DNA of 64,000 nucleotides from Apostichopus japonicus. Lineage: Eukaryota > Echinodermata > Holothuroidea > Aspidochirotida > Stichopodidae. Shown here piece after piece: positions 470 to 64,000 of this stretch; within the stretch, counting starts at the first letter, position 1, and each line of letters starts with the position of its first letter. Location: NCBI RefSeq assembly GCF_037975245.1, contig NC_092561.1:16869001-16933000 (forward strand). The letters run 5' to 3'. The position numbers and the translations under genes are program-made. The notes under the pieces were generated by a model that worked only from the letters and a program-made list of their open reading frames with translations, was not told the origin of the DNA and did not search any database.

Positions 470-16646
<16,177 letters not shown>

Positions 16647-18560: not shown

Positions 18561-18879
18561 TAACATATATGTCTCAATATTTTGGCTTTGGAGGTAAGTG
18601 ATGATGTCATCGACATGGTAAGGTTCTGGCAATTTTAGCATTTTTGATAGGGTTATGGGTGGTCACCGCATGTTAGTGAATTCGAAATGAAAACCGGTGT
18701 GAAGTTAGATACTTATTCCCCGTTCCTCGTTCGATATTCGCAAATGAGTAACTGAGCTACCTATTCAGTTACGTATTCGACAATGGTACAAAAGCTTCTT
18801 ACAAGATGTTTAACATTTGGTCGTGGAAAGAGGTTTTATCAATGGCCCATGGTCATATGAACTCTAACGACTATGTGGA

Positions 18880-21445
18880 AGGGTACCATAATGCATCTTG
18901 CCCGGTCCAAATAGTTCTTGACCAACTAAAATGACCACTACTTCATGAGTTCTTAAATTAATGTAACTGGACCAGAAAAAAATCACTTTAGGCCCTAATC
19001 AAGACTAGCACGCCTTGGACCACCTTACCAATGGGTCATATGAATTCTTAACACATTGTAGAAGGATACCATAATGCGTCTTGCCCGGTCCAAAGCGTGC
19101 TTGACAAATTAAACTGACCATTAAATCAACATTTTTTTAAATAAATGTAACGGGAACTGAAATAAAAACATTTGGGCCCTAATCAAAACCAGCACGCCTT
19201 GGACCGCCCAACCAATGGGTCATGGGAAGTCTAAGGACCTTATAGAAGGGTAAAATAATGCGTCTTGCCCGGTCCAAAGAGTGCTTGACCAATTTAAATG
19301 ACCACTAAATCATTACTTCTTTAATGAGTGTAACGGGACCACGAAAGAGCTTTGGGCCCTAATCCATGCAGCACGCTTTGGACCACCTAACCAATGGATA
19401 ATATTAACTCTAAGGACATTGTAGAAGAGTACCATAATGCGTCTTGCCCGGTCCAAAGAGTGCTTGACCAATTAAACTGACCATTAAATCATTACTTCTT
19501 AAATGAGTGTAACGGGATCACGAAAAAGCTTTGGGCCCTAATCCATGCAGCACGCTTTGGACCACCTAACCAATTGGTAACATTAACTCTTAGGACATTG
19601 TAGAAGAGTACCATAATGCGTCTTGCCCGGTCCAAAGCGTGCTTGACCAATTTAAATGACCACTAAATCATTACTTCTTCAATGAGTGAAACGGGACCAC
19701 GAAAAAGCTTTGGGCCCTAATCCATGCAGCACGCCTTGGACCACCTAACCAATGGGTAACATTAACTCTAAGGACATTGTAGAAGAGTACCATAATGCGT
19801 CTTGCCCGGTCCAAAGCGTGCTTGACCAATTAAACTGACCATTAAATAATTACTTCATCATGTAGTGTAACCGGACCACGAAAAGCTTTGGGCCCTAATC
19901 CATGCAGCACGCTTTGGACCACCAAACCGATGGTTAACATGAACTCTAAGGACATTGTAGAAGGGTACCATAATGCGTTTTGCCCGGTCCAAAGCGTGCT
20001 TGACCAATTTAAATGACCACTAAATCATTACTTCTTTAATGAGTGTAACGGGACCACGAAAAGCTTTGGGCCCTAATCCATGCAGCACGCTTTGGACCAC
20101 CTAACCAATGGGTAATATTAACTCTAAGGACATTGTAGAAGAGTACCATAATGCGTCTTGCCCGGTCCAAAGAGTGCTTGACCAATTAAACTGACCATTA
20201 AATCATTACTTCATCATCGAGTGTAACCGGACCACGAAAATGCTTTGGGCCCTAATCCATGCAGCACGCTTTGGACCACCTAACCAATGGGTAACATTAA
20301 CTCTAAGGACATTGTAGAAGAGTACCATAATGCGTCTTGCCCGGTCCAAAGAGTGCTTGACCAATTTAAATGACCATTAAATCATTACTTCATCATCGAG
20401 TGTAACCGGACCACGAAAAAGCTTTGGGCCCTAATCCATGCAGCACGCTTTGGACCACCTAACCAATCGGTAACATTAACTCTTAGGACATTGTAGAAGG
20501 GCACCATAATGCGTCTTGCCCGGTCCAAAGCGTGCTTGACCAATTTAAATGACCACTAAATCATTACTTCATCATCGAGTGTAACGGGACCACGAAAAGC
20601 TTTGGGCCCTAATCCATGCAGCACGCTTTGGGCCACCAAACCGATGGTTAACATGAACTCTAAGGACATTGTAGAAGGGTACCATAATGCGTCTTGCCCG
20701 GTCCAAAGCGTGCTTGACCAATTTAAATGACCACTAAATCATTACTTCTTTAATGAGTGTAACGGGACCACGAAAAGCTTTGGGCCCTAATCCATGCAGC
20801 ACGCTTTGGACCACCTAACCAATGGGTAACATTAACTCTAAGGACATTGTAGAAGAGTACCATAATGCGTCTTGCCCGGTCCAAAGAGTGCTTGACCAAT
20901 TTAAATGACCATTAAATCATTACTTCATCATCGAGTGTAACGGGACCACGAAAAAACTTTGGGCCATAATCCATGCAGCACGCTTTGGACCACCTAACCA
21001 ATCGGTAACATGTACTCTAAGGACATTGTAGAAGAGTACCATAATGCGTCTTGCCCGGTCCAAAGCGTGCTTGACCAATTTAAATGACCACTAAATCATT
21101 ACTTCTTTAATGAGTGTAATTGGACCATGAAAAAGCTTTGGGCCCTAATCCACGCAGCACGCTTTGGACCACCAAACCGATGGTTAACATGAACTCTAAG
21201 GATATTGTACAAGAGTACCATAATGCGTCTTGCCCGGTCCAAAGCGTGCTTGACCAATTAAACTGACCATTAAATCATTACTTCATCATCGAGTGTAACG
21301 GGACCACGAAAAAGCTTTGGGCCCTAATCCATGCAGCACGCTTTAGACCACCTAACCAATCGGTAACATTAACCATAAGGACATTGTAGAAGGGTACCAT
21401 AATGCGTCTTGCCCGGTCCAAAGAGTGCTTGACCAATTTGGGCCC
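18880..21445. repeat. left arm: 179-bp satellite, 15 copies
   Basis: The word CTTGCCCGGTCCAAA recurs 15 times at spacings of 177-185 bp (from about 18898 to 21408). Each unit also has GCTTTGGGCCCTAATCCATG, CAGCACGCTTTGGACCACC and GACATTGTAGAAG. The outer three or four units are the most divergent and inner units are nearly identical, suggesting homogenisation from the inside. Confidence 0.95.
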
Positions 21446-21687
21446 TAATCAAGTCCAGCACGAATTAGCTTGACCAATCATGGTCAAAATTCACATTGAC
21501 AATAACTGTTATTTTTCGATTCTTTTCATTTTGTACCTGAAAAGCAAATTTATTTCTAAGAGGGCTACATGCCATAGGTACACAACAGACAGCCATTTGA
21601 GACATGTTGTTTTTTAGACCACAATTATGGCACGAAAACATGGCAAAGTTTCTTGAGATTACGTAATCTACTGCCTTGTCGTAAAAT

Positions 21688-22310
21688 CATAGGCGTAGGA
21701 GGCGGGGGGGGGGGGGCTGGGGGGGCTGCAGCCCCCCCAACCAAAATTTTTGGTGAAAATTCGGGCAATATGCTGAGAATTTTTCGGGCACCTACTGAAA
21801 GAAGAAAAATTTGCAGTTGTGTTTTTCAATTTTTTGTGTGAAAATTCAGGCAATATGCTGAGAATTTTTCGGGCACCTACTGAAAGAAGAAAAATTTGCA
21901 GTTGTGTTTTTCAATTTTTGGTGTGAAAATTCGGGCAATATGCTGAGAATTTTTCGGGCACTTACTGAAAGAAGAGTAATTTGCAATGTGTTTTTCAATA
22001 GTTAAACTGATATTGTTATTATCATTATTATTGTAACGACTTCCCCAATAATTAAAACTAATATGGAAGGGTAATAACACGGAAAATATGACAACAATTT
22101 TTCGCGCGCCCCGCGCGCGTTCAACATCTTGATGTGCGTATCATATAGTATTCATCGGTTAGTGGTATGTGATGTAATAACCGATGAATGCCTATATGAT
22201 ATGCATATTAACATGTTGAACGCGCGCGGAGCGCGCGAAAAATTTGGTTATATTTTTCGGGCAAGTCGTTACAGCCCCCCCCCAAATCAAATTAGGCTCC
22301 TACGCCTATG
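21688..22310. mobile_element. hAT-type MITE with perfect 8-bp TSD
   Basis: Inverted ends CATAGGCGTAGGAG / CTCCTACGCCTATG, flanked by CGTAAAAT at 21680-21687 and 22311-22318. It contains two and a half copies of an ~88-bp repeat (GAGAATTTTTCGGGCACCTA) and an inner fold-back (22032-22275). Inserted in the core of the large foldback element. Confidence 0.88.
22032..22275. repeat. near-perfect hairpin with CG-rich arms
   Basis: GTAACGACTT...AAGTCGTTAC form the outer arms. Inside, CGCGCGTTCAACAT pairs with ATGTTGAACGCGCG, and TATCATATAG and ATTCATCGGTTA pair with TAACCGATGAAT and CTATATGATA. The loop is about 16 nt. Probably a second MITE nested in the first. Confidence 0.8.
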
Positions 22311-23589
22311 CGTAAAATTACCTATTTTTTTCTACCAATTAGTCTGCTGGCATAGCGATCACATATATTTTTTGTATAAGGGTCGTTGTGTGAACGCTGT
22401 ATGAGTGATTACACTGTAGACATGAACATACTTCCACACAGTGTTTACACAAAGAGCTAGGCAGGCTCATTGTAGAGTCTGAAGCCTGCAGGTTGATTTA
22501 ATTTACGAAGTAATCACAAAACAGGCTTTCCTACCTATAGCGTGCTATATACTTGGAGCCAAAATAAAGCAGATCTTTAAGTGGAAGAGACACGGTAGGA
22601 GGAACAATTATTACTAGGGCAAGGCAACCGTAACTTTTAAAAAAAAACACTGAAAAGTAATGAGCACACGGACAAGCGTTCAATATTTTCCAAACTCTAT
22701 TAACTTCGACACAATTGTAAAACAACATTTCCTTGAATACTTATGCAGATTGGCGTCTCATATAGATTCATATATACACTCCTGTATTTACAATGCTTTC
22801 AGGCTCTCCTCGATTGATTATTTACAACATGCATGGATCAGCGCATGTAGGCCTACTCATCATGGATAAGCTGTATACGGGGTTTGAAGTCCTAACAACC
22901 TTCGCTTCATCAGTTGTCATATATTTTTTATGATTTCCAGAAGTAAAGATCCCTCCCTCCTTCAATAACTCAATAACTCCTTCCTCCGTAAATAACTCCC
23001 CTAATTCCTCCGTCATATCTATCCCTTCTTTCCCTCATGCATTCCCTTCCTTCCCTCTTGCACACATAAACTCGGGCATACATCAACGCATACACCCTAA
23101 CATACATACAAGTATACATGACCATGCATTTTCAAAGTGTACACAGTACACAAGCACTTGTTACTCGAGCTTTACACTGAATGTGGCTATCGCCAGACCA
23201 GCCCAGTATTTTATGTGATAGGCAGCTAATTCTGGCTTGCTTAAAAAATAAAAGATCAAAAGGGCAATCTCAAGAAGCAAACATGTATAAAAGTTGTTAT
23301 CTCAGTTTTGTAGTCGAACCGAGCATTATTCCTATCCGCTTGACAGATTTTGTATCAAAACGAAAAAAATTCGTCTCATGAAACGAAGGGACTCGACAAA
23401 AGGGCGTTACTTTAATCAAATCCAAAGCAAGACTTCATTAGCAAGTTGACTTAATTTTCATTATCAAGAGATGAGCAATTCCCCAAGGTGGGGGGGGGGG
23501 GATATACTCATTTCTAACGAATACCTATATGTTAAGAAAACTTTTATTACTGGATATTGCTTGATATATGTTAAAGTGTTGGTGACCTA
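22311..23589. other. foldback core, left part, nothing recognised
   Basis: Unique-looking sequence with a poly-G tract near 23492; no coding exon identified. Confidence 0.4.
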
Positions 23590-23885
23590 GACCCACCCCT
23601 GCACCTTTGTCCTCGGTAATGAGTTTTAGATTTAATTTAAATCTAAATAAAAATGTGCAATTAGAAATGGCCCGGCTTTCTTGAATCCTTGAAATCGTTT
23701 TTAGATCTTAGTTCGGAGAGTATGTTTTGATATTTTATGTGTATATGCATTCCATTTATATATATTTGTTTATGTGTTCTGTTTGTTATATTTTGTATGT
23801 TATATATGTATGAGGGATCCTCGGGAGAACACTGGCTCACCAGTGACAGGATCCCTGGTTACGAATAAAGTTAATAATAAAAATG
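23590..23885 (+). mobile_element. 3' end of a non-LTR retrotransposon
   Basis: A T-rich tail follows short coding-like sequence. It contains GAGGGATCCTCGGGAGAACA and CCAGTGACAGGATCCC, a small inverted pair, then GAATAAAGTTAATAATAAAA at the end. This is the usual look of a 5'-truncated non-LTR element. Confidence 0.55.
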
Positions 23886-24104
23886 ATAATACAAAAAAAT
23901 ACACATAATACACAGGCACCTTCCTATCAACATTTGTGCTAGAAGAAATGTACGTTCTTTTGACGTAACGGGCGCCAGGCGATTAAAAAAACAATTTAAA
24001 GTAAAAGGGTATTTATTGGGTATGCAGCGACTGATCCATTTAGAATTACCTAACCGAATCCCCTGTTTGAAGAATGGTTTTACAGAAAATCGCAATCTCC
24101 GCTT

Positions 24105-25358
24105 CTAGTTTTTGATGTAAATCAGATAATTTGGTGTTTCATTGTCCTCAAACTTTAGGAATGACTCCTGTCCATACATGGCTCCCTTAAGTCCGTCGTA
24201 GTTGTACCAATAGCCCCTGCTTTTTATCTTGCACGAAAAGTGTCGTCCGTGGTGTACAGTAACACCATACAGCGTGTATCTGAAAAGGAAGGGAAAGTAC
24301 TATTAATAATGAGTGAAAGTAACATTTACACAGCCAAACAACACTATAAATTTGGTCAAGGGTAGTTGAATAGAGCGGAAGGGGCTGCTTATGCGAACGC
24401 GATTGCAAATTGCACCCCCCCCCCCCCCCACAAAGGAATGTGGTTATGTTTATTCGTCATCTTTAAAACAAATGAAAGGATTGCGTATCGAGACTGAAAA
24501 CGTCGCTACTTATATGTTCTCACTCTTTCCTCGATAACGTCTCACATTTCAACTGGAGGCAATCCACTTTTGATCCCCTGAAGGATGTATTCTTTCAAAG
24601 GCTACACGACGTCCAGATATACCGCGCTAAAATGCAGACATAATGGCTTCGGACGCTGCAGTAGTTATTTCACTTCGCTAATGAATTTCTGTTTGCGTAG
24701 TCTTTTAGTGTTTCGGTCTATAGTATCACTGTGAGGCGGGATTAATGTATTATGCGGGGCAAGTTGAGGATGGGCAGGTCGGGGTGGGGGATATTGCTAG
24801 ACCGTGTGACAACTCTTGTGCTGGGCCAACAACAAAAAGTCAATGCACAGAAACTTATTTTACCTTTGCTTGCTGACTGTGAGTTTGTCGTGAAATACGG
24901 TAGCATGCAACTTCTTCTTACTTCTTGAGTACATGGTAGGGCTGACTACTAAAAATGGTGGTTGACCGCTAAAATATCTGAATACTCTTGGTAACCATGT
25001 CCTTGTACCTGTACAACGGCTGTCGGTAAAAAAAATGAAAAATGTACCACACGCAGTATATTTGGGTACATTAATGTCAATTGCTTTCTAGGCTGGTGTT
25101 CGGTTATCGTACTCAATATCAAGTATAGATAGAAAAAAACAATTGAAATAGATTATCGATTAATCGGAATATTTAAAAATGCCAATGGTTCTAACTTTCT
25201 TTCTCCTTCTTAACTTTCTCGAATAAATTGTCTGTTAATTTGTAATAACAAGATACCTGGACAAGTTCAGAAACGGCAATCTGCATTTCTCGGCGAAGGG
25301 TGCTTCCCACTTACTCAACTCGTTTTGTAGTGTCGTTCCCTCAGGTTGCACGGTGAGA
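24105..25358 (-). CDS. ubiquitin-specific-protease-like C-terminus, 2 exons (partial)
   Basis: Exon 25358-25257 (102 nt, acceptor TTATAG, donor GTATCT) and exon 24279-24105 (175 nt, acceptor TTTTCAG, stop TAG) join in phase into about 91 codons. The second exon reads YTLYGVTVHHGRHFSCKIKS, then RGYWYNYDGL and later NYLIYIKN. This matches the end of the UCH/USP fold: the catalytic-His box (usually GGHY), the W-Y-x-x-D box and the closing strand. The His is kept as GRHF. The Cys box and N-terminal exons were not found in the core. It lies wholly inside the foldback element, so it may be a captured gene or cargo. The enzyme would remove ubiquitin if complete. Confidence 0.65.
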
Positions 25359-27490
25359 CTATAACAAAGAAATATAAATTATGAATATTACCATTGTAAA
25401 TCAATATACAGCACAATAGCCACAATTTCGTTTCTTATGAGAGACGGTTAAAACGTCCCAAAACTGTATCTAAGATGTAATTTTGACGTTCATAACTTTA
25501 TGGGTCTGCTGTCTGCATGTCGTCGCGCTAGCTGGGTCTGTTAGGTCTGCATTAATAGTGCGTTTTCATTTCTACCAGTTGAGTTCTGCTCAAAAGCACG
25601 TGACGGGAATTAAAAAAGGTTTATTTTTACCTATACTAGTGTTTTAACTAATAAAACACTGTTTAACCCGCTTCTCATATTGTTTTGATCAGACTAAATC
25701 ATTTTAAACCGCCACTTGCCCAGACGAATTTTATTTTTACGCTTAATCAAAGGTGAAAATAGCAATGGGGTACTTATTTGAACACCATGGCATAAAGCGA
25801 CAGCATCTTTCCAGGGCTGTAGCAAGGCTGTAGCAGGATTGTAGCAGGCATGCACTGTCATAAAAGCTCAACTGAAGCTTACAGCCGGACAAACAATCAA
25901 AGAAATAAGCCATCCCTATACGCCAACTATGCGATCAGGGCAAAATGCAGTAACGTTCAAACATTGAACACTATCACTTTAACTTCACTAACGTGGGTCA
26001 GAGACATTTGTAGAAGGAAAGTCGGAAATTGTGACTATTTCCGATATTTAATTCATTTGGGAATACAAATGCGAAATATCAGTTAAACCATCAACATGCT
26101 GCAGATACTTTCAGTTATTTATCATCTAAGAATGTTAATGGTTCGACGCAAGGGAGCAATCACGCTATGATATATATGAACTGTCAGCCTTTTAAAGATA
26201 ATTCCACGGACGTTCATGATGGTAGGCTGTCCGTTCGTACATCGGTATCAATCATCCTGAATGAATCATTCAATTACATTCAGAACGCATGGTCCTTTGT
26301 TCCGCTCCTTCACATTTGTCCTATCAAGTATTGAGTAATAGTGAAATGGAACATCGTTGCACATAGATTGGTAAAAGTGTATCAATTCTACCAGATTAAA
26401 GTAATTTTGGCATGAACATTTATCTTCTGCAAGTACGATAAAAAATTGGGAGTGGTGGGGGTTGTGGAAGCAAGTTAAATTTCTCCTCACTTATATACTT
26501 CCATAATTAACTCAGCAAATAGCCGAAGTTTTATTTACCGAAGAATTAATACATTAATTACAATTATAGGTGATTAGAAAGTGTAATTTTGACTTAATTT
26601 GACAAACGCAACATTTACCTAACATATGGCACTTTTGTTAATGGATTGAATGTATATTGTGTATTGAGTAAAACTTGTATAGCTAGATGATATAAGTTAC
26701 AATTAATATTTAGGTAAAACTGAATAAAAAGAAATTTATTAAAAACTCACACTAACTCAGGTCTGTGTTTAGTTGAAATAATTGCAGTGAAACTTCTTAA
26801 GGTGGATCTGCCTTCTATACTCCAACAGAAACTTTCTATTGAAAAATAGCTCAGAGAAAGGACAAGCACATGGGAACACGATAAAAGCAAAATGCATCGA
26901 ATGGCACTATATAGGGTAAACTTAGATCGGTTCATTACCAACAATGACTAATGGAGAGTATTAATAAATCAGAAAGGGATTTCGGCATAAAAGATATGTC
27001 TGGGTAGACCTATTTCACTTGAAGCCTCATTTGCTAAATATACTATTAGAGTAAGTTTCCCTCCACTTGACCCGAGATGACTGATTGTCTTGGTCAGCTC
27101 TAGAATGTAGCAGTGGAATCTTTCAGAATCTATAAATTGGGTAACAGCGTTCACAACCACTTTCGATGAGAGACCTACAAAACTTCTCTGTTATAGTTGC
27201 AAGAGAAATAAAAAAAAAGAGAAAAAAAATCTAAGTTCTTTAAATCTGTCAACGTTTGACGTGTGAAACGAATTAAAGAAATGAAAGTATGTTCTATGAA
27301 CGAATAATTACACAAAACGGTATTCATTGCGTTGCCAGTGTACAGAAATCTCTTCATTATGAGAAAAGCAGTTGCGCTAAGGTGCGCCCACCCCTCCCCC
27401 AAGAGGAAGAGTGCGCGTACGTCTCTCGGGAATAGGAAGGAAACTTTGTATGCTGATGATCATTTAGGAAGTATTGGAGAAGAAGTCATT
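25359..27490. other. foldback core, right part, no assigned exons
   Basis: Several open minus-strand stretches (26266-26490, 26747-26944, 26969-27160) could be upstream exons of the USP-like fragment. Their possible splice phases do not fit the entering phase of exon 25257-25358, so none is called. Confidence 0.4.
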
Positions 27491-27494
27491 TTAA

Positions 27495-28830
27495 TTGGTC
27501 AAGCACTCTTTGGACCGGGAAAGACGTATCATGGTACTCTTCTACAATGTCCTTAGAGTTCATGTTAACCATTGGTTAGGTGGTCCAAAGCGTGCTGCAT
27601 GGATTAGGGCCCAAAGCTTTTTCATGGTCCAATTACACTCATTAAAGAAGTAATGATTTAGTGGTCATTTAAATTGGTCAAGCACTCTTTGGACCGGGCA
27701 AGACGCATTATGGTTCTCTTCTACAATGTCCTTAGAGTACATGTTACCCATTGGTTAGGTGGTCCAAAGCGTGCTGCATGGATTAGGGCCCAAAGCTTTT
27801 TCATGGTCCAATTACACTTATTAAAGAAGTAATGATTTAGTGGTCATTTAAATTGGTCAAGCACGCTTTGGACCGGGCAAGATGCATTATGGTACTCTTC
27901 TACAATGTCCTTAGAGTACATGTTAACCATCGGTTTGGTGGTCCAAAGCGTGCTGCATGGATTAGGGCCCAAAGCTTTTTCATGGTCCAATTACACTCAT
28001 TAAAGAAGTAATGATTTAGTGGTCATTTAAATTGGTCAAGCACTCTTTGGACCGGGCAAGACGCAGTATGGTACTCTTCTACAATGTCCTTAGAGTTTAT
28101 ATTACCCATTGGTTAGGTGGTCCAAAGCGTGCTGCATGGATTAGGGCCCAAAGCTTTTTCGTGGTCCCGTTACACTCATTGATGAAGTAGTAATTTAGTG
28201 GTCATTTTAATTGGTCAAGCACGCTTTGGACCGGGCAAGACGCATTATGGTACTCTTCTACAATGTCCTTAGAGTTAATGTTACCCATTGGTTAGGTGGT
28301 CCAAAGCGTGCTGCATGGATTAGGGCCCAAAGCTTTTTCGTGGTCCCGTTACACTCATTAAAGAAGTAATGATTTAGTGGTCACTTATATTGGTCAAGCA
28401 CGCTTTGGACCGGGCAAGACGCATTATGTTACCCTTCTACAAGGTCCTTAGACTTCCTATGACCCATTGGTTAGGCGGTCCAAGACGTGCTGGTTTTGAT
28501 TAGGGCCCAAATGTTTTTATTTCAGTTCCCGTTACATTTATTTAAAAAAATGTTGATTTAATGGTCAGTTTAATTGGTCAAACACTCTTTGGACCGGGCA
28601 AGACGCATTATGGTATCCTTCTACAATGTGTTAAGAATTCATATGACCCATTGGTAAGGTGGTCCAAGGCGTGCTAGTCTTGATTAGGGCCTAAAGTGAT
28701 TTTTTCTGGTCCAGTTACATTAATTTAAGAACTGATGAAGTACTGGTCATTTTAGTTGGTCAAGAACTATTTGGACCGGGCAAGATGCATTATGGTACCC
28801 TTCCACATAGTCGTTAGAGTTCATATGACC
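27495..28830. repeat. right arm: 179-bp satellite, 8 copies, inverted
   Basis: The same unit in reverse complement: TTTGGACCGGGCAAG near 27515, 27694, 27873, 28052, 28230, 28409, 28592 and 28773. As on the left, the outermost two or three units are the diverged variants, so outer units pair with outer units. Confidence 0.95.
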
Positions 28831-29032
28831 CATGGGCCATTGATAAAACCTCTTTCCACGACCACATGTTGAACATCTTGTAAGAAGCTTTTGTCTTGCC
28901 AGAGGTGTTACGTCGATATCATTGTCGAATACGTAACTGAATAGCTAGCTCAGTTACTCATACGCGAATATCGAACGAGGAACGGGGAATAAGTATCTAA
29001 CTTCACACCGGTGGTACACCGGGGCGGGTACG

Positions 29033-29123
29033 GTACCGTTAAAGTATAATTACAGGTAGGTGTTTATGGAGGACCGGTTACCCGTACCGTTAAAGTATAA
29101 TTACAGGTAGGTGTTTATGGAGG
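29033..29123. repeat. 51-bp tandem duplication spanning the ALDH8A1 start
   Basis: GTACCGTTAAAGTATAATTA followed by CAGGTAGGTGTTTATGGAGG occurs at 29033-29072 and 29084-29123, period 51. The second copy supplies the ATG at 29117. The first copy supplies an ATG at 29066 opening a 14-codon upstream reading frame that stops at TAG before 29117. Confidence 0.9.
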
Positions 29124-29313
29124 TTGTAGCAGCAAAGAAAATGAAAACAATGGCACTGGAGGTACAAAATTTCATCGGTGGGGAGTTCATCCCTGCTAAA
29201 ACTCACTTAGATAGTTTCAACCCAGCTACTGGTGAAGTTTGGGCGAAAATTCCGGATAGTGGAAAGGAAGAAATTGACTTAGCAGTGAAGTCGGCGAAAC
29301 AGGCATTTCCCAG
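29117..29313 (+). CDS. ALDH8A1: ALDH8A1 exon 1
   Basis: Ends FPS with donor CCCAG then GTAGGC, phase 2. It starts about 100 bp to the right of the foldback element end and inside the second copy of a 51-bp duplication. Confidence 0.85.
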
Positions 29314-52063: not shown

Positions 52064-54297
52064 TTAATACTTCATTTGTTCCCTCTTATTCTTTTGTATG
52101 ATGTTCCATACTTTGGACTTTATTTGTACTATGGACCTGCGCTTAAGACAGGAATTCTTTAGCTTTGCTTGAAGGCAATCTTTTGACACAGGTGGGTGCA
52201 TGGCATTGATAGCCTTTCTAAGGCATGGATCATTAATAACAGCTGTCTCTTCCTCTTTTGTCCACATTGTTTTAGATATTTTCACCCTCTTAGTTGGAAG
52301 TGCCTTTGTTGGCTCTTTTGATTCAGAGTTGTCACTCTCATTTCCGTCTGACATTTCTATGTCTGACAGAAGTTGGCTTTCCTCAATCTCAACTTCTTCA
52401 AGGGACCTCCCTTTAAATTCATGAAGTTTTCCCTTCTCAGCAGTTAGTAAAAGCTTCCTCACTTTTGCAAGAAATATGACATCTTGGGGCAGCCGGTAGT
52501 ACTGCTTGTGGACGGTTACATCATGCCCTAAATGGTTGGCCAATTGTTCTAATTCAGTGTTGGATAGACTAAGGATTTGTGAAAGAGTTGCTAAATGCTT
52601 GCGCAGATTGGTGGCGGTCAGTCTGTCAGGATTTTTGGCCCCACACAAATGCGCGTATTTGTGCAAACAATCATAACCTCGAAGCGGCTGAACAGAGTTT
52701 CCTGATGGGCAAGCAAATATGTATGGGTTTTGTGGATCGACGCCAGCAATTTGACGAGTTTTGTTGAGTACTTTAACCGAATCTGCCATGTCAGGGGTTA
52801 ACAAGATTGGCACCCCTCTGTCACGTTTTCCACGTGTCATTATTAGAGTAAGCCTCTTTGCTGCCAGCTTTTGTGCTATTGGAAGAGATTCAAATATTTC
52901 ATCTTGGAACTCTCTCTTTTTCTTTGTTTGCTCTAAATAATCTGACATTCTCAAATATTGTGTTTCGCCAGGTCTACGGCAATTGAACATTATTAGCTGA
53001 GCAAGGGTTAAAGAAGCCAACTCCCGCCAAGTGGATGTTGATACTTCATTACCTTGTAACTTCTCTTTTGTAGTACAAACTTGGTTTGTCAGTAGCTGAT
53101 TGAGCTTCACAGTGTCGGCTGTTAAGGGAACTTTCTTTGTTTTTGCCACTTTTGCTTGCATTGTTGCTTATAAACTTTTGTGGCAATTCTTTGTTTCCAT
53201 TGCAGATTCTTTAGTTTCAAGAACTGCTCTGCTTTGCACTCCTGCAAGGTATCTGATGATTTAATGGATTCTGCAATTACAATTTCAGCCAAAGTAGTTA
53301 GGCTTTGTCCCAGCTTTTTAGCAAGTGTGGGTGCTTCAAAGTTTTGGTTTGAAGTGTCAAATCCAGAGCAAATGTTAACACCAAGGATCACGTCATCGAA
53401 ATGTGCTGGGTCTACTAAGTCTTTAGCAGACTTAATAGATGCATTTATTTGCTGTGTTTCAAGAAGGAGCCTTGCAATGCGCCTCATTCTTTCTGAAACA
53501 ATGTTGTGATTAATTGTGCTGCTATCATCACAGTGATGCTCTCCTAATTTGCAGATCCAGGAATCTGCTCTTATGGTAACAACAACACTATCAGTTCTCA
53601 TACCAGCAAGTATCTCTTGCAGTTTAGCACTGCAGGGACTTTTTGTTGGAAGCAATGCCCTACCAGCCTTTTGACACTGTGCAGTTCGAGATGTGGTTGG
53701 ATTTTCCTTTGCTTTTTTTAGGGTACATTTCTTTTGATGTCGCCACAATGACTTTTTCGCAAAATAGCCTTGGCAATCTGGGCAAGGAATGTAATCTTCC
53801 ACATGCATTGTGCCTAATTTTGGTCTTTTGTAGACCAAGAGCTTTCCCTTGCCTTCTTTTAGCACACGACAATTATAGGCATTGTCTCCCTTTTTTCTGA
53901 TCTCTTCTAAAATTGCATTTCTTTCTGCTGACCTTTTTGGCAACAGCATAGCTTTCATTACCAATATTTCATCAGCATGATGAGTTTCTAGATGTCTTGG
54001 TAATTTGGTTACATTTTTTTCACAAAAGAGGCAACAGTGTTGTCTGTTCCATGTTCTTTTCCTACTTTTACTATAGTAAGTGGAAGATACTTTGACACCA
54101 TCTGAATGATTTTTACTTGTTGAGGGCTTTTCATTTTCACTGCTTTCTTCTTCGGATTCTTCATCTGTTGTAGATTCACTCTCACTAAATGCGTCTAGGT
54201 AATCATCGCTGAAATCCTCCTCATCAGTGCTGGTGCATTCCTCACTATCATAGTCCGTTGTTTGCATATGGCTAAGATGCTTTAGCCTTTGTGGAAC
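52064..54297 (-). CDS. last exon: zinc fingers, recombinase-like domain, SANT-like tail; one frameshift
   Basis: The acceptor CTTCTAG precedes 54297, and the frame runs VPQRLKHLSHMQTTDYDSEE. The first frame stays open from 54297 to its stop at 53122. The second, in the -1 frame, runs from about 53161 to the stop at 52064. The overlap is about 40 nt in an A-rich stretch. The protein context reads sensibly across it (IATKVY...QKW in one frame, PLTADTVKLNQLL in the next), so one net base appears lost. No canonical slippery heptamer in the zero frame was found. Single-base decay, assembly error and polymorphism are all possible. Confidence 0.75.
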
Positions 54298-57200: not shown

Positions 57201-60200
57201 CAGTATCACATGTAATCAATATTAAAGTAGCAATATAACAATATAACCTGTTCTTTCACTATGTTCCAGACTAGCATTAAAAAGCAGGCAAAGACAGCAC
57301 ACAGAGGATGCCTGTAGATATGGACTCCTGAAGGTTTAACTCGCTATTTACTAAAGAAAAGACTATTTGCTTCACTTCAGCAGCTTCGACATTGCGTTAT
57401 TAGTGTAACGGTAGTAAAAGGAAGCAATGCACCAACTATTCCAGAATGCAGTTTGATGCAGTTTACATGATTTAAAATTGTTTGTTGCATGAGTCACTTA
57501 ACAAAGGAGTGATATGACTCAAGTAGAAAGGGCATGTGTTACGTAGTGACTTCACAACAGCATGTAAAAGCCAAATCGCATTAAGTTTGGACAATTTGTT
57601 CACATGCAGTGTATCATGTACAGTAGGTCTTGTACACACTGCTACAGGATTCAAAAGGACATCAAACGGAAAAGACAAAGCTACTTACTTTGCAACATGA
57701 CTTGATAATAATTCTCAAACACAGTTCAAATTTCAATGGGTTAAAGCATTACTTTGGATTTATGAATTAATTTCAATTAATTTTAATAGTTAATTTGTGG
57801 TATATTCTTCCACAAAAGGTTATCACATTTCAATTGTTGGAAGCTTCTTTTCAAGGCCAAAGCTAGTGTTAAAAACAGTTCTTGGTCAACTGAGCACACA
57901 CACATTCACTTGTAGGTCTGCATATAGTGCCATACTTACTCAAATCACAGGACAGTCACTCCTTTTATTTTGTAATGAAATTTACTCATTTTCAAACAGC
58001 ATTTTAAGTATCTCAATGTACATGGATGTAGGCTAGTATACCTACCTTACTATTTTCTGTGACAATTTCGTCATTGGCTTCACAAATGGTCTGTGTAAAA
58101 ATGAGGACAAAATAGTCATGTTAACATCAAATTACAGAGTCACATACAGGTGTGGCACAACTGGACTTACACACAGGGTCACTTGTTGGTCTAGTTGTAA
58201 GTGTTAATGAAATCAAAGAAAGACCATAACAAATACAAAATTGACATGATTTACAACTTGTTTTTAATTAATTTTAATAACATAGGGTGCCTTCTGAAAC
58301 CCACACCATCAAACTATGGTTAAAATTTTACAAGAGCTTGTGCCAGAGCTAGTGTTAAAAACAGTTCTTGGTCAACTGAGCACACACACATTCAATTGTG
58401 GGTCTGCATATAGTGCCATACTTACTCAAATCACAGGACAGTCACTCCTTTTATTTTGTAATGAAATTTACTCATTTTCAAACAGCATTTTAAGTCTCTC
58501 AATGTACATGGATGTAGGCTAGTATACCTACCTTACTATTTTCTGTGACAAATTCGTCATTGGCTTCACAAATGGTCTGTGTAAAAATGAGGAGAAAATA
58601 GTCATGTTAACATCAAATTACAGAGTCACATACAGTTGTGGTACAACTGGACATACACCCAGTGTCATTTGTGGGTCTAGTGTAATTGTTAATGAAATCA
58701 AAGAACCCGCCCCCGCCCCCCCCCCAAAAAAATTACTGAATTGACATGATTTACAACTTGTTTTTAATTAATTTTAATAACATAGGGTGTCTTCTGAAAC
58801 CCACACCATCAAACTTTGGTTAAAATTGTTCAAGAGCTTGTGTCAGAGCTAGTGTTAAAAACAGTTCTTGGTCAACTGAGCACACACACATTCACTTGTA
58901 GGTCTGCATATAGTGCCCTACTTACTCAAATCACAGGACAGTCACTCCTTTTATTTTGTAATGAAATTTACTCATATTCAAACAGCATTTTGAGTTTCTC
59001 AATGTACATAGCTGTAATATAGTATACCTACCTTACTATTTGCTGTGACAATTTTGTCATTGGCTTCACAAATGGTCTGTGTAAAAATGAGGACAAAATA
59101 TTCATGTTAACATCAAATTACAGAGTCACATACAGTTGTGGCACAACTGGACTTACACACAGTGTCACTTGTTGGTCTAGTTGTAAGTGTTAATGAAATC
59201 AAAGAAAGACCATAACAAATACAAAATTGACATGATTTACAACTTGTTTTTAATTAATTTTAATAACATAGGGTGCCTTCTGAAACCCACACCATCAAAC
59301 TATGGTTAAAATTTTACAAGAGCTTGTGCCAGAGCTAGTGTTAAAAACAGTTCTTGGTCAACTGAACACACACACATTCAATTGTGGGTCTGCATATAGT
59401 GCCATACTTACTCAAATCACAGAACAGTCACTCCTTTTCTTTTGTAATGAAATTTACTCATTTTCAAACAGCATTTTAAGTATCTCAATGTACATGGATG
59501 TAGGCTAGTATACCTACCTTACTATTTTCTGTGACAAATTCGTCATTGGCTTCACAAATGGTCTGTGTAAAAATGAGGACAAAATAGTCATGTTAACATC
59601 AAATTACAGAGTCACATACAGTTGTGGTACAACTGGACTTACACCCAGTGTCATTTGTGGGTCTAGTGTAATTGTTAATGAAATCAAAGGACCCGCCCCC
59701 CCCCCCAAAAAAATTACTGAATTGACATGATTTACAACTTGTTTTTAATTAATTTTAATAACATAGGGTGTCTTCTGAAACCCACACCATCAAACTTTGG
59801 TTAAAATTGTTCAAGAGCTTGTGTCAGAGCTAGTGTTAAAAACAGTTCTTGGTCAACTGAGCACACACACATTCACTTGTAGGTCTGCATATAGTGCCAT
59901 ACTTACTCAAATCACAGGACAGTCACTCCTTTTATTTTGTAATGAAATTTACTCATATTCAAACAGCATTTTGAGTATCTCAATGTACATGGATGTAGGC
60001 TAGTATACCTACCTTACTATTTTCTGTGACAAATTCGTCATTGGCTTCACAAATGGTCTGTGTAAAAATGAGGACAAAATAGTCATGTTAACATCAAATT
60101 ACAGAGTCACATACAGTTGTGGCACAACTGGACATACACACAGGGTCACTTGTTGGTCTAGTTGTAAGTGTTAATGAAATCAAAGAAAGACCATAACAAA

Positions 60201-63200
60201 TACAAAATTGACATGATTTACAACTTGTTTTTAATTAATTTTAATAACATAGGGTGCCTTCTGAAACCCACACCATCAAACTTTGGTTAAAATTGTACAA
60301 GAACTTGTGCCAGAGCTAGGGTTAAAAACAGTTCTTGGTCAACTGAGCACACACACATTCACTTGTAGGTCTGAATATAGTGCCATACTTACTCAAATCA
60401 CAGGACAGTCACTCCTTTTATTTTGTAATGAAATTTTCTCATATTCCAACATTATTTTAAGTATCTCAATGTACATGGATGTAGGCTAGTATACCTACCT
60501 TACTATTTTCAGTGACAAATTCGTCATTGGCTTCACAAATGGTCTGTGTAAAAATGAGGACAAAATAGTCATGTTAACATCAAATTACAGATTCACATAC
60601 AGTTGTGGTACAACTGGACTTACACCCAGTGTCATTTGTGGGTCTAGTGTAATTGTTAATGAAATCAAAGAACCCGCCCCCGCCCCCCCCCCAAAAAAAA
60701 TTACTGAATTGACATGATTTACAACTTGTTTTTAATTAATTTCAATAACATAGGGTGTCTTCTGAAACCCACACCATCAAACTTTGGTTAAAATTGTTCA
60801 AGAGCTTGTGCCAGAGCTAGTGTTAAAAACAGTTCTTGGTCAACTGAGCACACACACATTCACTTGTAGGTCTGCATATAGTGCCCTACTTACTCAAATC
60901 ACAGGACAGTCACTCCTTTTATTTTGTAATGAAATTTACTCATATTCAAACAGCATTTTGAGTTTCTCAATGTACATAGCTGTAATATAGTATACCTACC
61001 TTACTATTTGCTGTGACAATTTCGTCATTGGCTTCACAAATGGTCTGTGTAAAAATGAGGACAAAATAGTCATGTTAACATCAAATTACAGAGTCACATA
61101 CAGTTGTGGCACAACTGGACTTACACACAGTGTCACTTGTTGGTCTAGTTGTAAGTGTTAATGAAATCAAAGAAAGACCATAACAAATACAAAATTGACA
61201 TGATTTACAACTTGTTTTTAATTAATTTTAATAACATAGGGTGCCTTCTGAAACCCACACCATCAAACTTTGGTTAAAATTGTACAAGAACTTGTGCCAG
61301 AGCTAGTGTTAAAAACAGTTCTTGGTCAACTGAGCACACACACATTCACTTGTAGGTCTGAATATAGTGCCATACTTACTCAAATCACAGGACAGTCACT
61401 CCTTTTATTTTGTAATGAAATTTTCTCATATTCAACCAGCATTTTAAGTCTCTCAATGTACATGGATGTAGGCTAGTATACCTACCTTACTATTTGCTGT
61501 GACAATTTCGTCATTGGCTTCACAAATGGTCTGTGTAAAAATGACGACGAAATAGTTATGTTAACATCAAATTACAGAGTCACATACAGTTGTGGCATAA
61601 CTGGACATACACACAGGGTCACTTGTTGGTCTAGTTGTAAGTGTTAATGAAATCAAAGAAAGACCATAACAAATACAAAATTGACATGATTTACAACTTG
61701 TTTTTAATTAATTTCAATAACACAGGGTGCCTTCTGAAACCCACACCATCAAACTTTGGTTAAAATTGTACAAGAGCTTGTGCCAGAGCTAGTGTTAAAA
61801 ACAGTTCTTGGTCAACTGAGCACACACACATTCACTTGTAGGTCTGCATATAGTGCCATACTTACTCAAATCACAGGACAGTCACTCCTTTTATTTTGTA
61901 ATGAAATTTTCTCATATTCAAACATTATTTTAAGTATCTCAATGTACATGGATGTATGTTAGTATACCTACCTTATTATTTTCTGTGACAATTTCGTCAT
62001 TGGCTTCACAAATGGTCTGTGTAAAAATGAGGACAAAATAGTTATGTTAACATCAAATTACAGAGTCACATACAGGTGTGGTACAACTGGACTTACACCC
62101 AGTGTCATTTGTGGGTCTAGTGTAATTGTTAATGAAATCAAAGAACCCGCCCCCCCCCCCAAAAAATAAAATAAAATAATGAATTGACATGATTTACAAC
62201 TTGTTTTTAATTAATTATAATAACATAGGGTGTCTTCTGCAACCCACACCATCAAACTTTGGTTAAAATTGTACAAGAACTTGTGCCAGAGCTAGTGTTA
62301 AAAACAGTTCTTGGTCAACTGAGCACACACACATTTACTTGTAGGTCTGCATATAGTGCCATACTTACTCAAATCACAGGACAGTCACTCCTTTTATTTT
62401 GTAATGAAATTTACTCATTTTCAAACAGCATTTTAAGTATCTCAATGTACATGGATGTAGGCTAGTATACCTACCTTACTATTTTCTGTGACAATTTCGT
62501 CATTGGCTTCACAAATGGTCTGTGTAAAAATGACGACAAAATAGTTATGTTAACATCAAATTACAGAGTCACATACAGTTGTGGCACAACTGGACATACA
62601 CACAGGGTCACTTGTTGGTCTAGTTGTAAGTGTTAATGAAATCAAAGAAAGACCATAACAAATACAAAATTGACATGATTTACAACTTGTTTTCAATTAA
62701 TTTTAATAACATAGGGTGTCTTCTGCAACCCACACCATCAAACTTTGGTTAAAATTGTACAAGAACTTGTGCCAGAGCTAGTGTTAAAAACAGTTCTTGG
62801 TCAACTGAGCACACACACATTCACTTGTAGGTCTGAATATAGTGCCATACTTACTCAAATCACAGGACAGTCACTCCTTTTATTTTGTAATGAAATTTTC
62901 TCATATTCAACCAGCATTTTAAGTCTCTCAATGTACATGGATGTAGGCTAGTATACCTACCTTACTATTTGCTGCGACAATTTCGTCATTGGCTTCACAA
63001 ATGGTCTGTGTAAAAATGACGACAAAATAGTTATGTTAACATCAAATTACAGAGTCACATACAGTTGTGGCATAACTGGACATACACACAGGGTCACTTG
63101 TTGGTCTAGTTGTAAGTGTTAATGAAATCAAAGAAAGACCATAACAAATACAAAATTGACATGATTTACAACTTGTTTTTAATTAATTTCAATAACATAG

Positions 63201-63977
63201 GGTGCCTTCTGAAACCCACACCATCAAACTTTGGTTAAAATTGTACAAGAGCTTGTGCCAGAGCTAGTGTTAAAAACAGTTCTTGGTCAACTGAGTACAC
63301 ACACATTCACTTGTAGGTCTGCATATAGTGCCATATTTACTCAAATCACAGGACAGTCACTCCTTTTATTTTGTAATGAAATTTACTCATTTTCAAACAG
63401 CATTTTAAGTATCTCAATGTACATGGATGTAGGCTAGTATACCTACCTTACTATTTTCTGTGACAATTTCGTCATTGGCTTCACAAATGGTCTGTGTAAA
63501 AATGAGGACAAAATAGTCATGTTAACATCAAATTACAGAGTCACATACAGTTGTGGCACAACTGGACATACACACAGGGTCACTTGTTGGTCTAGTTGTA
63601 AGTGTTAATGAAATCAAAGAAAGACCATAACAAATACAAAATTGACATGATTTACAACTTGTTTTTAATTAATTTTAATAACATAGGGTGCCTTCTGCAA
63701 CCCACACCATCAAACTTTGGTTAAAATTGTACAAGAACTTGTGCCAGAGCTAGTGTTAAAAACAGTTCTTGGTCAACTGAGCACACACACATTCACTTGT
63801 AGGTCTGAATATAGTGCCATACTTACTCAAATCACAGGACAGTCACTCCTTTTATTTTGTAATGAAATTTTCTCATATTCAACCAGCGTTTTAAGTATCT
63901 CAATGTACATGGATGTAGGCTAGTATACCTACCTTACTATTTGCTGTGACAATTTCGTCATTGGCTTCACAAATGGT
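52064..63977 (-). CDS. tyrosine-recombinase-like (Crypton-like) multi-exon gene, 5' end outside window
   Basis: Exons on the minus strand, all phase-compatible: thirteen 45-nt exons (63977 down to 58046), 57089-57053, 56800-56738, 56485-56426, 55862-55837, 55465-55409 and the last exon 54297-52064. The N-terminal part is acidic and Ser/Thr-rich. The last exon has a CxxC..HxxxxH motif (CLFCEKNVTKLPRHLETHH) and a CxxC..HxxxxC motif (CPDCQGYFAKKSLWRHQKKC). A -1 frame change near 53122-53165 separates these from a tyrosine-recombinase-like domain. That domain has FNCRRPGE (Arg I), RGKRDRGVP, TATNLRKHLATL (Arg II; the usual His of HxxR is Thr) and LANHLGHDVTVHKQYYRLP (His and Tyr). A basic Myb/SANT-like tail follows. 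Similar proteins occur widely in fish and invertebrates, possibly Crypton-derived. Active transposon versus host gene is undecided. Confidence 0.7.
54298..55227. other. intron of recombinase-like gene, nothing recognised
   Basis: The stretch between the last exon and the tRNA-like relic shows no repeats or exons. Confidence 0.4.
55228..55299 (+). mobile_element. tRNA-like sequence (SINE head or tRNA pseudogene, CAT anticodon position)
   Basis: GGCTGAG at the start pairs with CTTGGCC at the end (7 bp with wobble). Box A is TAGCTCAGTTGG, a perfect consensus. A CAGG..CCTG anticodon stem has CAT in its loop. Box B is degenerate (GGTTTAGAATCC), and the T-stem does not pair properly. No CCA or T-run terminator. 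Best read as a tRNA-derived SINE head or dead tRNA. Confidence 0.6.
55409..55465 (-). CDS. recombinase-like gene, 57-nt exon
   Basis: Acceptor TTCACAG, donor GTATTG, phase 0 on both sides. Encodes SHPELQPIFERMLEQMKAQ, a likely helix. Confidence 0.65.
55837..55862 (-). CDS. recombinase-like gene, 26-nt micro-exon
   Basis: Acceptor AAACAG, donor GTAAGT. It completes an Asp codon and encodes ILNKPCQE; it converts phase 1 to phase 0, and the frame fits both neighbours. Confidence 0.55.
56426..56485 (-). CDS. recombinase-like gene, 60-nt exon
   Basis: Acceptor TTGCAG, donor GTAAGA; phase 1 in, phase 1 out. Encodes DSNRDEAVFLDELTGNMYSY. Confidence 0.65.
56738..56800 (-). CDS. recombinase-like gene, 63-nt exon
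   Basis: Acceptor CTTACAG, donor GTAAGT; phase 1 in, phase 1 out. Encodes DTGGELYFDADLGKYHNSLL. Confidence 0.65.
57053..57089 (-). CDS. recombinase-like gene, 37-nt exon
   Basis: Acceptor TTCTTCAG, donor GTATGT. Encodes ESISTSTSTSFT; converts phase 0 (from the 45-nt exons) to phase 1, matching the next exon. Confidence 0.6.
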
Positions 63978-64000
63978 CTGTGTAAAAATGACGACAAAAT
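57770..64000. repeat. 486-503-bp tandem array, 13 units, continuing off the window
   Basis: Unit spacings measured at the exon are 486, 500, 486, 495, 486, 501, 486, 486, 503, 486, 486 and 486. Two unit types exist: a 486-bp type with AAAGAAAGACCATAACAAAT, and a longer type with a C-rich ACCCGCCCCC run. They alternate at first and then occur as two or three short units between long ones. A 68-codon plus-strand frame is open in every unit, but lacks any family signature and is treated as chance. The left-most unit decays between about 57770 and 57850. Confidence 0.97.
58046..63977 (-). CDS. thirteen tandem 45-nt phase-0 exons (acidic 15-aa module)
   Basis: Exons: 58046-58090, 58532-58576, 59032-59076, 59518-59562, 60013-60057, 60499-60543, 61000-61044, 61486-61530, 61972-62016, 62475-62519, 62961-63005, 63447-63491 and 63933-63977. 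Each has acceptor TTTTTACACAG and donor AAG then GTAGGTATA, is exactly 45 nt, phase 0, and free of stops. The consensus product is TICEANDEIVTENSK. Variants are I to F (copies 2, 4, 5, 6), E to A (copies 3, 7, 8, 11, 13), E to K (copy 3), T to A (copy 11) and S to N (copy 9). They join in frame to the exon at 57089. If all are used, they add at least 195 residues. Use in mRNA is inferred, not shown. Confidence 0.6.

Follow-up and report, generated by a model that had tools for sequence, protein, structure and literature searches.

Host-like protease exons in a satellite-armed foldback element of Apostichopus japonicus are most likely the tail of its own transposase gene

How do exons that resemble the C-terminal half of a host ubiquitin-specific protease (USP) come to lie inside a transposable element that carries no visible transposase? 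The question is raised by a 10,320-bp foldback element at positions 18693–29012 of the window, by which we mean the whole 64,000-nt stretch of the holothurian Apostichopus japonicus analysed here (GCF_037975245.1, contig NC_092561.1, positions 16,869,001–16,933,000, forward strand). An initial annotation of this stretch had attributed the exons to capture of a host gene at the DNA level. We instead read the element, with a probability of roughly 0.88, as a non-autonomous, internally deleted foldback of the NOF-FB/Rehavkus type (MuDR-related), whose exons are the tail of its own transposase gene.

The exons lie on the minus strand of the core, the first surviving 3' exon at 25257–25358, the second at 24864–25019, and the last, which includes the stop codon and a USP-like His/Asp region, at 24105–24279. 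Inspected by eye, they have AG/GT borders and compatible phases, in keeping with the in-phase USP-like exons originally described. Pfam UCH matches the joined exons at E 8e-4 and 19.5 bits, under the cut-off of 23.9; no homologue of them was found in PDB or the protein database. The window copy holds the C half of a USP alone, without the Cys box that a complete protease would unite with the His and Asp boxes in one protein. No transposase was detected in the core, either by Pfam on 28 of 59 listed open reading frames (ORFs) or by a six-frame Pfam scan, which is insensitive because it missed UCH too; nor did any of 21 transposase-search proteins match the window element by tblastn at E 1e-3. 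The absence of a visible transposase holds for this copy, and comparison with another copy of the element suggests that this part was deleted.

That copy came from a DNA search with 24060–25400 in the window's own assembly (671.6 Mb, 35 contigs). The search returned two places, the window itself and C17 (L033), a 13.5-kb element of the same foldback family that matches 24061–24837 only, taking in the last exon plus a portion of the preceding intron. Between the two stretches that it shares with the window copy, and in the orientation of the USP exons, C17 carries a transposase frame (7652–9391, minus) and after it the half of the protease with the Cys box (6922–7596, minus); the last USP exon (5728–5901) lies further downstream. 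A homologue of this transposase in the fish Triplophysa is named NOF-FB transposable-element protein (E 2e-43), while Pfam assigned no transposase family to the C17 transposase frames. The structural model P0013 (mean pLDDT 66.8) had a single Foldseek match under 0.001, to RAG1; the VIA-align table contains no MULE or NOF entry, which excludes nothing. A second copy of the C17 transposase, at 94%, lies between core and satellite arm in the family element C16, where the Cys half is present and the C half is not detectable. A PHD finger was not seen in the C17 pieces; upstream in C16 there is a 19-residue match (E 0.006).

The window copy and C17 have suffered complementary internal losses. C17 is without the first two C-half exons and has a (CATC)n stretch in their place, and the transposase and Cys-box exons kept in C17 are absent from the window copy, where the comparison puts a probable deletion junction at 25735/25736. 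What the two copies share is very similar: 34 of 2721 aligned bases differ across 21460–24837, a nested insertion excluded, and 12 of 1722 differ across the non-coding core at 25736–27460. The former includes most of the region 3' of the exons (21440–24104, minus strand). The nested insertion (21688–22310, ~620 bp) has inverted ends flanked by the 8-bp duplication CGTAAAAT (21680–21687 and 22311–22318); it is absent from C17 and younger than the element, and from its length we presume it to be hAT-like.

More distant relatives show the same order of domains. At a locus designated C19 (862801–870800), a diverged gene, 37% identical in its transposase, encodes this part and the Cys half in a single frame, open for 1560 aa; sequences corresponding to window exons two and three follow on the same strand, with the phase-2 borders seen in the window copy (by eye). 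Two further genes, L054 (1879–6405, C3) and L055 (1099–7149, C12), have unbroken frames, 1509 and 2017 aa long, respectively, reading PHD – transposase-like – USP – Ulp1. Their transposase-like regions are 26% and 25% identical to that of C17; UCH is recognised at 6.5e-21 and 9.5e-24, nearly in full (profile positions 3–254 of 254), and Ulp1 at 3.3e-26 and 1.9e-16. Because a USP-type domain stands C-terminal to the transposase in C17 and C16 (Cys half), in the C19 gene, and in L054 and L055, the window exons are, on sequence grounds, most likely a remnant of the transposon's transposase gene rather than of a captured host gene.

When the genome was searched with the transposase frame, 33 matches were listed, of which two reached 94% or more; they include further long stop-free frames, the longest of 2017 aa. 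Scores are nearly equal at five places (C22, C3, C14, C8, and C4), and for this reason the PHD – transposase-like – USP – Ulp1 family may have been active recently.

Several observations weigh against a transposase origin of the exons. No single copy seen in the family unites transposase and Cys half with the full set of three C-half exons, and the transposase is interrupted in both family copies found to have it, by an in-frame stop between two parts in C17 and by one TAA in C16. Neither the window copy nor C17 has a target site duplication (TSD). The identity of all 172 coding bases of the last exon between these two copies is not evidence of selection, since only about two differences would be expected at the surrounding 1.25%. 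In the C19 gene, we found no match to the first window exon, no family terminus or satellite within the surrounding 8 kb, and no Pfam recognition of the protease. The DNA retrieved around L054 and L055 contains no 14-base terminal inverted repeat (TIR) with an 8–10-bp duplication, and a simple motif pattern for the first catalytic Asp had no match in either. C19, L054, and L055 could therefore be host genes derived from transposases; L054 and L055 may alternatively be mobile.

The structure of the element itself is clear. The constant terminus ACCGGTGTGAAG... starts at 18693 and its complement ends at 29012, so that the ends agree to the base with those first proposed, as do the counts of 15 and 8 inverted ~179-bp units obtained from unit anchors. 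The left non-repetitive terminal segment, an A-type end (18693–18837, plus strand), leads into the left arm of 15 satellite units, the last truncated (18838–21439, plus); on the other side, the right arm of eight units (27485–28837, minus) is followed by the right terminal segment, a B-type end in which 23 bp are inserted compared with the left end (28838–29012, minus). Tandem Repeats Finder reports a period of 179 at 18860–21439 and 27485–28833, and the longest inverted pair spans 919 nt at 94%. Over the ~185 bp ahead of the first unit anchor, the two ends agree at 180 of 185 aligned bases, with 25 gap columns, as expected of the matching terminal segments noted at the outset. The statement that outer units pair with outer units stands for the two outermost pairs (L01/R01 99%, L02/R02 96%), each unit of which is just 78–84% similar to full inner units; further in, the pairing is ambiguous. 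Some left units resemble units four positions away (L07/L11, 99%), a spacing of likeness expected from unequal exchange.

With up to two mismatches allowed, the genome contains 264 matches to the terminal 27-mer (125 + 139) versus none for its reversed control, and the window element is therefore no chance structure. Among the 100 terminus places listed, 52 combine into 26 pairs of neighbouring head-on ends, with lengths from 0.65 to 16.8 kb, and 48 are unpaired. A unit 20-mer occurs 1901 times with up to one mismatch (control 0), and the 100 unit sites listed all lie, by eye, within 5 kb of a listed terminus. Eight copies were compared end to end (the window copy, C17, L034–L037, L044, and L045). 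They have 15/8, 19/5, 14/10, 9/15, 8/2, 17/13, 9/8, and 4/15 units per arm, which fits the proposal that the arms arose as an inverted pair and then changed in copy number. According to the identity table, one A-type and one B-type end recur in each of six of the eight, L044 and L045 forming a separate group; because of this recurrence, the inverted arms are, as judged from the sequences, older than the window copy. Perfect 9-bp duplications lie right outside ACCGGTGT... in six of the eight copies. At the window copy, the 9 bp to the left, GAAATGAAA (18684–18692), are unlike the 9 bp to the right, GGTACACCG (29013–29021), with seven of nine positions mismatched; at C17, five of nine are mismatched.

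Transposase and USP sequence was sought in 12 copies (the window copy, C17, L034, L035, L037, L044, L047–L051, and C16), with L047–L051 represented by their core stretches alone and L036 and L045 outside the tally. The transposase is present in two of them (C17 and C16) and C-half exons in two (the window copy and C17), proportions that are biased because C17 and C16 were selected through their own matches. The suggested search for the USP exons in other copies was thus rewarded in part: the last exon recurs in C17, and the other copies tested are without them. Long pieces of the core at 25736–27460 match the non-autonomous copies L034, L035, L037, and L048–L051 at ~77–80%, and L047 matches it in one piece only.

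How, then, do the competing accounts fare? Capture at the DNA level, in the manner of a Pack-MULE, would have brought 3' exons from a host USP gene into the foldback. This account can appeal to the window copy alone, with its spliced host-like exons and no transposase, and to the absence of the exons from the other copies compared, C17 excepted. However, a Pack-MULE-like origin calls for a fragment from a separate host gene, and the assembly searched yielded no donor: the exon DNA is found only here and, in part, in another copy of the element, the one remaining protein match in the genome is found downstream of a different transposase-like gene, and two relatives hold the USP within a transposase-like frame. 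C17, the C19 locus, and the two uninterrupted frames point to the transposase's own 3' exons, and we regard capture, the interpretation first offered, as improbable. An assembly artefact is more improbable still, given that the arm–core–arm architecture is repeated at other loci, of which six have exact 9-bp TSDs. Our first classification was as a Ginger1-type element, from the CCGG beside TGTGA at both ends, which agrees with the TSD and TGTNR terminus given for Ginger1 in the available text of PMC2836005. It was dropped when other copies showed the duplication outside CCGG: CCGG belongs to the constant terminus, the 9-bp duplication lies beyond it, the 4-bp CCGG/CCGT TSD given there for Ginger1 is not seen, and the transposase is NOF-FB-like. 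We now give this assignment practically no weight.

A further proposal adds to the transposase-remnant reading without competing with it. The missing TSD could mark a rearrangement breakpoint produced by exchange between two copies, as in the inversions caused by Galileo, for which the available part of PMC2775673 gives a precedent. The window copy and C17 lack the duplication that six of six other copies have, but the left 9-mer recurs beside another end at just one place, with two mismatches, which is about what chance would give for 264 ends (0.35). We consider such an exchange a real possibility, somewhat short of an even chance.

If the exons are indeed the tail of the transposase gene, the ancestor would have had two inverted satellite arms, a non-coding core, and a single multi-exon minus-strand gene whose transposase product ended in a USP-like cysteine protease. 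The window copy would then have lost its transposase and Cys-box exons through a deletion ending at 25735/25736, and owing to this loss the three remaining exons would make no working protease. By analogy with NOF and MuDR, a DDE-type transposase supplied in trans would recognise the termini, excise the element, and reinsert it with a 9-bp duplication, and the satellite units would multiply by unequal exchange. It is speculative that the units also carry additional binding sites, as in Galileo; a conceivable candidate is the longest invariant run of 14 columns in 21 full units, a length reached by 411 of 20,000 column shuffles and thus weak support for a conserved site. Equally speculatively, USP and Ulp1 might deubiquitinate or deSUMOylate the transposase or host factors that repress it. 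Extending this, we tentatively suggest, with somewhat less than even confidence, that NOF/Rehavkus-type transposases carry a built-in deubiquitinase, often followed by a SUMO protease, that shields the transposase or disarms ubiquitin/SUMO-dependent silencing by the host, and that satellite-armed foldbacks such as this one, having shed the enzyme, are parasites of that system.

Within a transposon, exons resembling a host gene can be the tail of its own transposase, which corrects a plausible account of gene capture. The locus also connects foldback arms made of satellite units with a NOF-FB-like transposase, in a genome whose 264 matching element ends make gain and loss of arm units traceable across copies, and the two PHD – transposase-like – USP – Ulp1 frames make a role of ubiquitin/SUMO proteases in transposition directly testable.

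Derivation of the satellite unit from the terminal segment was considered and found no support, the similarity score being reached by 124 of 1000 forward and 653 of 1000 reverse shuffles. The satellite had no match in viral contigs, and the terminus none in phage records; NCBIfam gave no match either. Next to the element, and separate from it, the first exon of an aldehyde dehydrogenase gene begins 104 bp away (29117–29313, plus strand, borders by eye); a ~40-bp direct duplication including an ATG (29032–29124) lies immediately before this exon and extends across its beginning, 20 bp from the element end. Elsewhere in the window, 7149–7607 (minus) holds the beginning of an exon with a BTB/POZ domain (Pfam BTB_3, E 5e-9), and a 486-bp tandem satellite of 12.5 copies occupies 57856–64000, reaching the window end. 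Two long overlapping ORFs of 367 and 391 aa at 52064–54297 (minus) had no Pfam match at E 0.01 and include a stretch that, we presume, resembles a tyrosine recombinase.

FB foldbacks of Drosophila have long, internally repetitive inverted arms. The present family shares such arms with FB-NOF and a homologous transposase with the NOF-FB-named protein of Triplophysa, and differs in its 179-bp satellite units and in a USP-like C-terminal domain split over exons. With Rehavkus, as described in the available text of PMC6446971, it has in common the 9-bp TSD and a satellite-type repeat by the TIR, whereas here satellites lie on both sides in inverted arms; the PHD finger reported for Rehavkus is present here in the relatives L054 and L055. 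The main text of that paper, in its available part, does not mention ubiquitin, protease, SUMO, or ULP. Tm1 of root-knot nematodes likewise has foldback-like composite TIRs, a 9-bp TSD, and a Mutator-type transposase, but this transposase is said to resemble the Phantom subclass, and the accessible description (PMC3169594) includes no protease tail. Satellite-built foldback arms are themselves already known from Tetris and Galileo. According to the accessible text of PMC4079207, Tetris of Drosophila virilis is a non-autonomous foldback whose TIRs consist of a variable number of ~220-bp tandem units; these also form free satellite arrays, unlike the unit sites listed here, and share 37 bp with the terminus, whereas unit and terminus here have no significant similarity. 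Galileo (P superfamily) shares foldback-like arms, internal repeats with binding sites, and the capacity to cause inversions, and differs, as far as the available text goes, in its THAP-domain transposase and a 7-bp TSD, a length not seen here. A C19 peptidase domain on a transposase is not new in itself: the available text of PMC2836005 describes a Trichomonas protein joining transposase_11 and Peptidase C19, as well as OTU or Ulp1 on Ginger1 transposases and Ulp1 on those of Mutator. The literature searched, which included few subscription papers and no Repbase reports, yielded no account of a NOF-type transposase bearing a USP domain. With a 9-bp TSD in six of eight copies, a NOF-FB-homologous transposase in C17 though not in the window copy, and long repetitive inverted arms, the family probably falls within the NOF-FB/Rehavkus type. 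The window element is a foldback of a known kind, decayed and non-autonomous, and the transposase architecture that lies behind it is under-described.

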